From Spirochaetia bacterium (GTDB lineage Bacteria > Spirochaetota > Spirochaetia > Treponematales > Treponemataceae), in assembly GCA_022768685.1 (NCBI GenBank), contig JALEPQ010000134.1, positions 1 to 38,059 on the forward strand: a stretch of 38,059 bases of DNA, written 5' to 3'. Numbering within the stretch: position 1 is the stretch's first letter; the number at the start of each line of letters is the position of its first letter. This document shows, in pieces, positions 1-4,326 of the stretch. The position numbers and the translations under genes are program-made. The notes below the pieces were generated by a model, which saw nothing but the letters and a program-made list of their open reading frames with translations, did no database searches and had not been told where the DNA came from.

Positions 1-165
1 GCGAAGGAGCGGGGCGTGGTTCAAAAACACTCTTTTTGTGGCTGCTGCGAAGCAGCAGTTCAATAGTTTCTATACCACAAAAAGCGTGTAGCGCATTATT
101 GCGCGGTTTTGAATCACGCAACCGTGACTGGGAGCCAAAAATTCAGGATTTTTGTTTATAATGCG
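1..165 (+). repeat. structured repeat element, left copy
   Basis: 64-165 is about 95% identical to the reverse complement of 6100-6200; nested complementary arms 14-26/107-119, 27-41/75-89, 42-48/52-58 and 91-94/101-104. Confidence 0.8.
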
Positions 166-197
166 GAGGCCCTGGATATTCTAGAATCTGGAAATTG

Positions 198-675: not shown

Positions 676-2028
676 CTATATTTCTATAATTAGAGCACCG
701 GATTTTTCATCTGTTTTAAGCTGAGAGTCCGGTGTTTTTATTTTAACAGGAATCAAATCTCCAGATTTTATCTTTTCTGCCTTCTGCCCTCTTGTTTTTA
801 CAAGAGTTAATCCTAATTTACTGCAGGCATAATATCCGGTACAGTGATTTGGAAGCATAAAGCTGTCTGAAGCAATTCTTAATAAAAGTTCATCTGATTT
901 TTTATTGTTTTCAGCTGCAGGATGTGAACTTGCAGAAATGAAACTTAAAACAGCTCTTTCCTTTGGAAGTTTTGCCAGTGTTGAAAGTTTTTGTAATCTG
1001 ACAGGGGCATCTTCTGTATTGAAGGCAAAGTTGCACCATTTATTTTTACTTCCTGTGTAAGATTTAAAGCCATTCATAGGGCATTCTTCAGAATGAGGAC
1101 AAGGCGCAATAATAGTATCCTGATTTCTTAAAAATCTGTCACGTAAAAGACTTAATGTTCTTGCGGCTTTTGGAACTCCAGGTTCAATTAAAAGAAAGTG
1201 AGCATAAGCAGCAGCATAATTTTTAAGCTGATCGAAATATTTTTTTGACTGAAATTCAGGAGGCATATCGCTTGCCTGATCAAGTTCATTGAACATATTG
1301 GCACAGGTAATAAAATCACATTTCTGGCGGATACTGGTTCCAAAACTTCCCTTTACGCGGATAATTTTCCATGGTTCTGTATCAGGGGTTCTTGCAGCAA
1401 TGGAAAGGTAAATATCTTCTCCTAAGGCCATTGAATTTGAAGAAACATCAAGACAATACCAGGTGAATTTTTTATTGCGAAGTTCCGGGCGGGCAAGCCA
1501 GAGAGCCGTAACAACTGTAAGGGGACCTGAACCTAAATCAAGACAGATAGAATCTTCTTTTTGTGGAAAGGAACTTTCCGGGAGATTTGAGAAAAGTCGT
1601 GTAAGACGTACCAGATTCCACCATGTAAAATAACGGACATAAGAGGAAAGCTGAATATTGTCATTCATATAACCTAATCTTCTTTCCGAACGCTGGTCTG
1701 TAAGCTGGTGAGAAAGTGAACGGATGTTGTCTGGCAGTTGCTGAATCTGGCGGCTGTTAAGGGGACGGACTCCTTGTATAATTTCATCAAAATTTGAAAG
1801 TGTTGTTTGAGCAAACTTATCAAGAGTAGAAGTAGAGAATAATGCGGATGCAGGAAGCAGGAATGAGGAATTACTATTTTTATGATTTGGTTGAGAAGTT
1901 TTGTTATTGTATGAGGATTTTTTTTGATTGGATTCTGGCTGAACGTGTATTTTTTTGTTTGCTTCAGCTCGTTTTACCTTTTTGCTTTTTTTTCCTTCTG
2001 TAAATTTTGAATAAAATTTATCTTCCAT
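676..2028 (-). CDS. Rsm22-type small-subunit rRNA methyltransferase family protein
   Basis: DLGSGPLTVVTALWLARPEL SAM-binding motif and Cys-rich CPHSEECPM...WCNFAF typical of the Rsm22 family; SD aagagg before ATG. Confidence 0.75.
   Translation of the reverse strand: MEDKFYSKFTEGKKSKKVKRAEANKKIHVQPESNQKKSSYNNKTSQPNHKNSNSSFLLPASALFSTSTLDKFAQTTLSNFDEIIQGVRPLNSRQIQQLPDNIRSLSHQLTDQRSERRLGYMNDNIQLSSYVRYFTWWNLVRLTRLFSNLPESSFPQKEDSICLDLGSGPLTVVTALWLARPELRNKKFTWYCLDVSSNSMALGEDIYLSIAARTPDTEPWKIIRVKGSFGTSIRQKCDFITCANMFNELDQASDMPPEFQSKKYFDQLKNYAAAYAHFLLIEPGVPKAARTLSLLRDRFLRNQDTIIAPCPHSEECPMNGFKSYTGSKNKWCNFAFNTEDAPVRLQKLSTLAKLPKERAVLSFISASSHPAAENNKKSDELLLRIASDSFMLPNHCTGYYACSKLGLTLVKTRGQKAEKIKSGDLIPVKIKTPDSQLKTDEKSGALIIEI
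696..745 (+). terminator. hairpin plus T-tract terminator lying inside the 3' coding end of the convergent gene
   Basis: caccgga (696-702) / tccggtg (728-734) followed by tttttatttta. Confidence 0.5.
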
Positions 2029-2061
2029 AATTTCCTCTTAATGTTGAATCTTTTTTATAAA

Positions 2062-2394
2062 TTAATTCCTGATTCCGCCTTCCGAATTCCTGATCAAAAT
2101 ATAAAGTTCTGAAAGTTCTGCCCTGCACTGTCGTATCTGTTGAATTAAATCTGCATTATCCTGTACCAGTTGAGCTTCTTCCAGAATCCTCTGACCTGCA
2201 CCTTCTGCAGTATATTTTTTTTCTGTAATCAGATATTTAAGACGAAAAATTAATTCAACTTCTTTCTGGGTATAAAGTCTCCTTCCGCTAACATCCTTCT
2301 GGGGAGTAAAGCCGGGTACAACTTCCTCCCAATAGCGCAAAACATGAGACTTTACACCTGTTAAATCTTCAACTTGTCCAATTGTATATGTCAT
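2062..2394 (-). CDS. MerR-family transcriptional regulator
   Basis: MTYTIGQVEDLTGVKSHVLRYWEEVVPGFTPQKDVSGRRLYTQKEVELIFRLKYL is a MerR-type winged HTH; start moved to ATG 2394 from ORF-track 2457. Confidence 0.8.
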   Translation of the reverse strand: MTYTIGQVEDLTGVKSHVLRYWEEVVPGFTPQKDVSGRRLYTQKEVELIFRLKYLITEKKYTAEGAGQRILEEAQLVQDNADLIQQIRQCRAELSELYILIRNSEGGIRN

Positions 2395-2429
2395 ATTTTT
2401 TTTCAGAGGGGACAGACCCCTACAAAGTA

Positions 2430-2462
2430 GATTGCCACGTCGCCTTGCTCCTCGCAATGACA
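2430..2462. repeat. REP-like element CATTGCGAGGAGC..GGCGACGTGGCAATCT
   Basis: Minus strand reads tcattgcgaggagcaaggcgacgtggcaatct with ATTGC/GCAAT terminal inverted repeats; resembles a dispersed repeat remembered from many bacterial genomes. Confidence 0.55.
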
Positions 2463-2464
2463 GA

Positions 2465-2816
2465 TTTTCCCCAAAAAACAGGAGAGCGAGACAAAGTCCC
2501 TTGACACTTTTAAATTGCCTATAGGTCTCCTAAACCTTACAAGTGCCTTATACCAGTTTTTTTTCAAAAAAACTGGAGAGCGAGACAATGTTCCTTAAAG
2601 CTTTAAAATTGCCTATAGGTCTCCTAAAACTATACAAGTGCCTCGTGCCTGTTTTTTTCTAAAAAAACAGGAGAGCGAGACAACGTGCCTTTAAACTTAA
2701 AATGTTCCTATATGTCTCGCTAACCTTTACTAGTGCCTTATACCAGTTTTTTTCCAAAAAACTGGAGAACGAGATAACGTTCATTGACACCTTAAAGTTG
2801 CCTAACTATCTCGTTC
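2465..2816. repeat. tandem array of ~94-bp units with internal hairpins
   Basis: ggagagcgagacaa / ggagaacgagataa recurs at 2481, 2575, 2670 and 2764 (spacings 94, 95, 94); junction hairpins at 2553-2576, 2648-2671 and 2743-2765. Confidence 0.9.
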
Positions 2817-4307
2817 CTCCCACTTCTTCCGAGACCCTTTTAATTCCAGCTGAACAGGTATATGATCATATCCTAAATCTTCACGGATACGGTTTTTAAG
2901 ATATGTAATATATGTTTCAGGTACAACTTCTGGACGAGTAGCAAAAATGATGAAAGATACAGGATTTGTACTGGCCTGAGTCATATAACGGATTTTAAAG
3001 TGTGCAGTTTTACTTGCTGGAGGCGGATATCTGTCCAACCAATCCTGCAGTGCATTGTTCAAAGATGAAGTTCCTATTTTCTTTGTAAGCTGTCCATATA
3101 AATCAATAGTTGTATTCAAAAGATCTTTTATTCCTTCTCCATTCAAAGCAGAAAGAGGAAGAATTGGGGCAAAATCCATGTGAGCAAACATAATGTTCAT
3201 CCATTCTCTGGCAGCCTTTACAGCTTTCTGGTTCTGTTCTTCCCGTAAATCCCATTTATTTAAAACAAAAATGATTGCACGACCTTTTTCATAAGCAAGA
3301 GAACAGATTTTCTTATCCTGTTCAGCAAGACCTTCAACAGCATCAATCATAAGGAAAACAACATCACATTCATCAAGAGTTTTAATTGCACGGTTTACAG
3401 AGTAATATTCAACATCATCAGTAACTTTTGCTTTACGGCGTATACCTGCAGTATCAAGAACTTTAAACGCCTTTCCAGCATAAGAAAATTCTCCTTCAAC
3501 AACGTCCCGTGTTGTTCCTGCATAATCACAAACAATAGAATTTTCGCTGTGAGTAAGGCGGTTAGAAAGAGTAGATTTTCCTGTATTTGGTTTTCCAAGA
3601 ATTGCAATCTTAATAGGACGGTCTTTTGAAAGTTCTTTTACTTTACTAAAATCACAACGTTTTTCTATTAAGTCTGACAATTCTCCAAAGCGGTCACCAT
3701 GTTCTGCGGAAATAAAAATCAGTTCATCAAAACCATATTTTGCATAGTTCCATGCTTCAGCTTCATTCTTTCCACCTTCAGTCTTATTTACAGCTGCAAT
3801 CACTTTATTCCAGTAAGGACGCATTTTGATGATAAATTCTTCATCTTCACCAGTAATAACACCTGCTTCAAGAAGAAGAATAACAACATCAGCCTTGTCA
3901 ATCATTTCAAGGGAACGTTCTACTACATATTCATCAAGTTCAGCTTCTTTAGAGCCAATATCACGGGTAAGTTTGTATCCGCCAGTATCTACAAGATGAA
4001 TAGGTTTTTCGTGGATAAAAGCTGTAGCTTCAACAGGGTCACGAGTAACACCAGGCTGATCATTTACGATTGCAATACGTCGCTGTAAAAAACGGTTAAA
4101 TAAAGTCGATTTTCCAACATTTGGACGTCCGGCAATAACAACTAAAGGAAGATTTTCATATTCTTTATCTTCTGGACGTACATCATCAACTTTATCTTCA
4201 ATAAAATCTGGTTCAACTTCAGGTTCTGTATTAAAAATATCAACTTCAGAACTGTGAATAACTTCTTTAGGTTTACTAAAGTCTGGCTTTGCCTTTTTCT
4301 TTGCCAT
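2802..4307 (-). CDS. der: GTPase Der (ribosome biogenesis, two G domains)
   Basis: GRPNVGKSTLFNR...DTGG and GKPNTGKSTLSNRL...DTAGIRRKAKV...NKWDL; C-terminal KH-like domain; ATG 4307 with ggag SD is preferred over TTG 4319. Confidence 0.95.
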   Translation of the reverse strand: MAKKKAKPDFSKPKEVIHSSEVDIFNTEPEVEPDFIEDKVDDVRPEDKEYENLPLVVIAGRPNVGKSTLFNRFLQRRIAIVNDQPGVTRDPVEATAFIHEKPIHLVDTGGYKLTRDIGSKEAELDEYVVERSLEMIDKADVVILLLEAGVITGEDEEFIIKMRPYWNKVIAAVNKTEGGKNEAEAWNYAKYGFDELIFISAEHGDRFGELSDLIEKRCDFSKVKELSKDRPIKIAILGKPNTGKSTLSNRLTHSENSIVCDYAGTTRDVVEGEFSYAGKAFKVLDTAGIRRKAKVTDDVEYYSVNRAIKTLDECDVVFLMIDAVEGLAEQDKKICSLAYEKGRAIIFVLNKWDLREEQNQKAVKAAREWMNIMFAHMDFAPILPLSALNGEGIKDLLNTTIDLYGQLTKKIGTSSLNNALQDWLDRYPPPASKTAHFKIRYMTQASTNPVSFIIFATRPEVVPETYITYLKNRIREDLGYDHIPVQLELKGSRKKWEERDS

Positions 4308-4326
4308 AAAATTCTCCAAAGGACTC

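Follow-up and report, generated by a model that had tools for sequence, protein, structure and literature searches.

A structured tandem hairpin array between der and merR belongs to a gene-end repeat family of Treponema

Between der, which encodes a ribosome assembly GTPase, and a MerR-like regulator gene, a draft Treponema genome carries a real, structured, tandem array of hairpins that is a member of a genus-wide gene-end family without Rfam match, near the Rfam TD clan. The window, i.e., the 38,059-nucleotide stretch of DNA analysed here, is one contig of this genome (G000; 2.28 Mb in 208 contigs). In a comparison of der, gut Treponema MAGs are its nearest named relatives, and T. bryantii is also near. 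On balance, the array is probably one site of a dispersed gut-Treponema repeat family that resembles the Rfam TD-1/TD-2 clan, targets gene 3' ends and has its stem completed from the host gene.

Layout and structure of the array

Tandem Repeats Finder reported a period of 94 bp (3.5 copies, 80% matches; 2473-2804) and a repeat search of the window gave start-to-start spacings of 94, 95 and 94 bp, in agreement with the original prediction of a four-unit array of ~94 bp. All hairpins named in that prediction were recovered at the same coordinates, and the array lies, as proposed, in the merR leader, on the minus strand between the two genes (Table 1). Read from der, a unit consists of a long-loop hairpin (S1; stem of 9-10 bp, loop of ~28-30 nt), a gap of 2-4 nt, a second hairpin (S2; 10-bp stem, short loop and AGTTTT..AAAACT core) and a ~20-nt tail. 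In the der-proximal unit, the coding sequence GAACGAGATA pairs with TATCTCGTTC around the der stop codon, confirming that one stem arm (2807-2816) is the C-terminal coding sequence of der (ERDS-stop). Only the two units closest to der have a perfect S1 stem, which is reduced to ~5 bp (GAGAC/GTCTC) in the other two, and S2 of the merR-proximal unit is truncated at the start of another dispersed repeat (~2400-2470). The head (GACAGACCCC) of this neighbouring repeat (GGGGACAGACCCC...TGTCATTGCGAGGAGC) recurs beside arrays at C66, C161 and C74 of G000, and the contig starts with a hairpin-rich repeat (window 1-180; GCGAAGGAGCGGGGCGTGGTTC...CACAAAAAGCG) that is found again next to family arrays at C97, C189, C125 and C93.

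Table 1 Features of the der-merR region, with window positions, and location of a TD-2-like repeat elsewhere in G000
Feature	Position	Strand	Details
Whole array, four double-hairpin units, der to merR	2456..2816	-	Covariance-model matches 2721-2815, 2626-2721, 2531-2626, 2456-2532
Unit 1 S1	2767..2816	-	Left arm 2807-2816 (der coding GAACGAGATA), right arm 2767-2776; der stop codon in loop
Unit 1 S2	2743..2765	-	CCAGTTTTTT..AAAAAACTGG
Unit 2 S1	2674..2721	-	Arms 2713-2721 and 2674-2682, AGCGAGACA/TGTCTCGCT
Unit 2 S2	2648..2671	-	CCTGTTTTTTT..AAAAAAACAGG
Unit 3 S1, decayed	2579..2625	-	Right arm 2579-2587; left side AGGAGACC keeps ~5 bp
Unit 3 S2	2553..2576	-	
Unit 4 S1, decayed, and truncated S2	2470..2531	-	S1 right arm 2485-2493
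der, ribosome assembly GTPase	2802..4319	-	End overlaps unit 1 (ERDS-stop)
MerR-like regulator gene	2062..2394	-	Downstream of array
TD-2-like second repeat (L203-L213)	G000 contigs C179, C139, C38, C93, C84, C76, C173, C164, C169		

Folding of the minus-strand transcript, which had been suggested as a check, showed that on the strand of der and merR the region is more stable than each of 100 dinucleotide shuffles (z -5.3), and the plus strand likewise folds better than 100/100 shuffles (z -6.2). The predicted covariation of the hairpins was also borne out: in an alignment of ten units from three loci of G000, which was not fitted to a model, changes on both sides occurred in 12 of 20 pairs (31 cells, against 11±2.5 in shuffles). 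An alignment of 43 sequences from several species had such changes in 17 of 19 pairs, with 212 double-change cells compared with 62±7 when partners were shuffled and at most 29 when partners were slid, and 95% of its cells pair; this alignment was fitted to the covariance model, and its counts lean towards structure. Covariation alone can stem from a copying process and need not prove RNA function. Within one array, a right arm is more similar to the other right arms than to the left arm of its own stem.

Dispersal and placement at gene ends

The genome-wide search that the original prediction had called for recovered, with a covariance model, ~14 related loci in G000, mostly tandem; the model built from ten units reached 35 places at E up to 1. 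These places include C16 (four units behind an OmpA-like gene), C66, C161, C189, C112, C74, C94, C97, C202 (mnmE), C85, C125 (purH) and C21. Hairpins of the AGTTTT..AAAACT type number 110 in G000 compared with 36 for the reversed control, and following up 20 further stretches with this pattern yielded one new array with both stems, at C22 (pnp), outside the model list. The unlinked loci C10, C16 and C66 share S1 loop and S2 sequence, with model E-values down to 1e-18, and copies of AAGCAGCGC occur at seven loci. A second covariance model detected relatives of the family in 66 of 196 genomes of the genus, with copy numbers from 1 to >20 and species-specific loop sequences, and its matches in a phylum sample spanning 69 genera were confined to the genus of the window. 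An Rfam search of the window returned nothing relevant, and the exact stem DNA of G000 had no match in the named genome collection. At one locus, C21 of G000 (L033 1501-1757), a long reading frame contains family units in frame, with a period of 87 bp, so that the repeat is translated. A cluster on G123:C82 was considered as a set of integron cassettes and this idea was rejected, as the units flank ordinary genes in mixed orientation and a cassette layout is absent.

At der itself, the distance to merR is 407 bp in the window, compared with a median of 9 bp across 105 loci where both genes are present (some species are counted twice, from two collections). None of the 29 fetched relatives carries the der-merR array. 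The two genes nearly abut elsewhere, and the array is therefore a lineage-specific insertion. A few relatives have other, unrelated repeats at this site. In two relatives, G122 and G099, another repeat (GGCCGGTGATAAATAGC...) supplies a replaced and longer C-terminus of der (L082, L084; VRKAAGGR-stop); this repeat is also found inside the C202 units of G000. The proposal that the array was amplified from the 3' end of der holds in part: the der end does form one arm, and interior unit heads align with it in a short, diverged alignment, as could result if duplications had taken part of der along. However, the array did not simply grow out of der. Loop and S2 are common to ~14 other loci of G000 and to other species, and der is thus the landing site and the donor of one arm.

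The family as a whole is associated with gene ends, and units often start within the stop codon. Among 126 distinct units, 29% start between -30 and +20 of the stop codon of a long sense ORF, compared with 4.4% of positions chosen at random in these loci (ORF calls came from a simple script rather than a gene finder). Convergent genes flank 25 of 58 classified element sites but only 7 of 61 element-free spacers, and codirectional copies in antisense orientation mostly abut the 3' end of the neighbouring gene; the family consequently marks the ends of genes irrespective of its orientation. Direct repeats of the gene end border some of the copies. At L054, L128 and L166, copies seemingly landed before the native stop codon, giving the protein a short repeat-encoded C-terminus (e.g., KASA-stop, CTKVEI-stop).

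Hairpin pairs that closely follow stop codons, are enriched between convergent genes and carry compensatory changes in their stems could also be functional terminators or attenuators whose structure is kept by RNA selection; tandem copies would then make termination between der and merR stronger. A survey of 13 genomes (PMC8355165) reports that hairpin clusters lacking U-tracts are frequent terminators, and the family shares with these clusters the arrangement of at least two adjacent hairpins close behind stop codons, although those clusters are a predicted function class, whereas the family described here is a dispersing sequence family. We consider this explanation unlikely. S1 has a ~28-nt loop without adjacent U-tract, copies occur in opposite orientation and even inside a reading frame (L033), and most genomes of the genus lack the family. 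The terminator or attenuator series envisaged in the original prediction is not shown: the features of a canonical terminator (a G+C-rich stem with a short loop, followed by a U-tract) are weak, with a single, marginal terminator-like site compared with 0.5 expected.

Stem arms shared with host coding sequence

Stems that incorporate the end of the host gene are found beyond der. At mnmE in G000, the final codons of the gene with its stop (GGGAAATAG) are part of the S1 stem. The array at pnp (C22) has the opposite orientation; GAATAG is used by its S2, and a stretch of pnp, GATGCAATTTCTGAATAG, is repeated in the unit. The best natural comparison comes from ilvC, where the arms read CCAGTTTTGTAA/TTACAAAACTGG in G185 and G153, CCTGTTTTGTAA/TTACAAAACAGG in G222, CCAATATTGTAA/TTACAATATTG in G000, AACCTGTTC/GAACAGGTT in G075, G085 and G133, and CCAATACTTTA/TAAAGTATTGG in G182; in each of these genomes, the downstream arm is the reverse complement of the last codons of its own species. 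An inverted match of at least 9 nt between coding end and downstream sequence was present in 38% of 29 ilvC loci compared with 7% for mismatched species, a value inflated by near relatives. Several ilvC loci contain the gene end twice, around hairpins. This makes ilvC a clear natural case of a non-coding arm following coding changes between species, although these loci bear more on the process than on the exact family, because not every ilvC hairpin is a full S1-S2 unit. Host templating at der would be a single case, since one genome has the array there, and at L128, L166 and L126 both S1 arms look element-derived; host templating is therefore not universal. With dispersed copies, empty der sites in relatives and duplicated gene ends at ilvC, pnp and mnmE, the suggestion of a MITE-like array is supported: the array is part of a family that is dispersed, MITE-like and shows genuine covariation.

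Arms that follow coding changes, and right arms that are more alike within an array than to their own left arms, could also arise independently at each gene end by replication slippage and template-switch (quasi-palindrome) correction followed by tandem duplication, with no mobile family involved. This origin is improbable, because convergence cannot explain the loops and S2 sequences shared by unlinked loci (C10, C16, C66) or, similarly, the seven loci with AAGCAGCGC. Quasi-palindrome correction may nevertheless act on top of dispersal.

Relation to known repeats and proposed origin

The closest known family is the Rfam TD-2 RNA (RF03162), grouped with TD-1 RNA (RF03155) in clan CL00124. TD stands for Treponema denticola, and the motifs were reportedly described in a comparative study in 2017; our searches of the literature on TD-1/TD-2 and Treponema hairpin repeats found no relevant description. 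Like the window family, these RNAs occur in Treponemataceae in many copies per genome, form tandem units of ~95 bp, consist of a hairpin, a TT(A/C) gap and a AGTTTTGC..GCAAAACT-type hairpin, and have copies that begin at stop codons. TD-2, too, proved to be dispersed and tandemly repeated in Treponemataceae, with matches at E up to 0.01 in 95 of 145 genomes and >20 copies in several; 7 of 20 copies inspected in one genome start within ~20 nt of a stop codon, and TD-2 copies share with the window family the AGTTTTGC hairpin and the short gap to the preceding stem. The window array thus has the AGTTTTGC/GCAAAACT hairpin after a stem and short gap in tandem units of ~95 bp, but differs from the three-hairpin, short-loop architecture of TD-2, which has a 14-bp stem with a 4-6-nt loop in place of S1 and a third hairpin, compared with two hairpins and an S1 loop of ~28-30 nt here. 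The TD-2 model matched neither window 2000-3200 at E up to 1 nor nine array loci of G000 at E up to 10. Close to a family member, a TD-2/TD-1 match occurs once (L129) and falls below the gathering score, and TD-2 matches in G000 are sub-threshold and away from family array loci. The array is accordingly described as a TD-like variant, by resemblance to TD-2 rather than proven homology. Another multi-hairpin repeat of G000 (GAACGTTTAAAATAGATGGC...GAGTTTTTTTGCAAAAACTC...) is TD-2-like; none of its roughly ten copies reaches the gathering score of TD-2. Most of the TD-2-rich genomes (G071, G124, G127, G128, G146, G160, G171) lack window-family matches and window-family-rich genomes have few TD-2 matches, a distribution that looks roughly complementary.

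REP/BIME repeats (PMC3733652) are likewise extragenic palindromes that lie at the 3' ends of genes or in convergent intergenic regions and form tandem mosaics, which raises the question of mobilisation by a RAYT (Y1 transposase). Three Y1_Tnp genes are present in G000. However, the window family has locus-specific S1 stems and no fixed tag tetranucleotide, and PF01797 matches are absent from eleven of the family-richest genomes (G027, G079, G186, G123, G065, G162, G004, G023, G147, G153, G201), a point softened by gaps in these drafts, many of which are incomplete. We rejected RAYT mobilisation, which appears very improbable, as the presence of Y1 transposases does not track the family.

The best reading is a TD-like mobile repeat that amplifies in tandem at gene 3' ends and whose stem is completed from the host gene. 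Judging from present-day sequences, a repeat copy would land at a gene 3' end, and fold-back (snap-back) synthesis would then use the host gene as template for one arm. Tandem duplications that include part of the gene end would subsequently amplify the site. The outcome at the RNA level would be a row of strong hairpins behind the stop codon of an intact gene, with up to four hairpin pairs placed in a der-merR transcript. These hairpins probably act passively, as a 3'-end or intercistronic structural barrier that protects from exonucleases, and possibly cause weak termination before merR; attenuation of merR by the array is possible. For the function, such a passive role as barrier or 3'-end protector is the simplest guess.

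Stems that are shared with host codons and follow them are more striking than the array itself. We tentatively propose, as a possible though doubtful generalisation, that a mobile hairpin repeat copies the reverse complement of the host's last codons to complete its stem, either by snap-back synthesis on DNA or by reverse transcription at the mRNA 3' end, and that the TD-1/TD-2 'RNAs' would then be relatives within this mobile class, and not RNAs dedicated to a role as sRNA or cis-regulator. If true, each copy would be custom-fitted to its gene and would re-create an intact gene end. The ilvC arms make the origin of such palindromes, by RNA selection or templated copying, testable, and the resemblance described here connects an RNA clan catalogued in Rfam with a gene-end repeat that occurs across the genus and amplifies in tandem.
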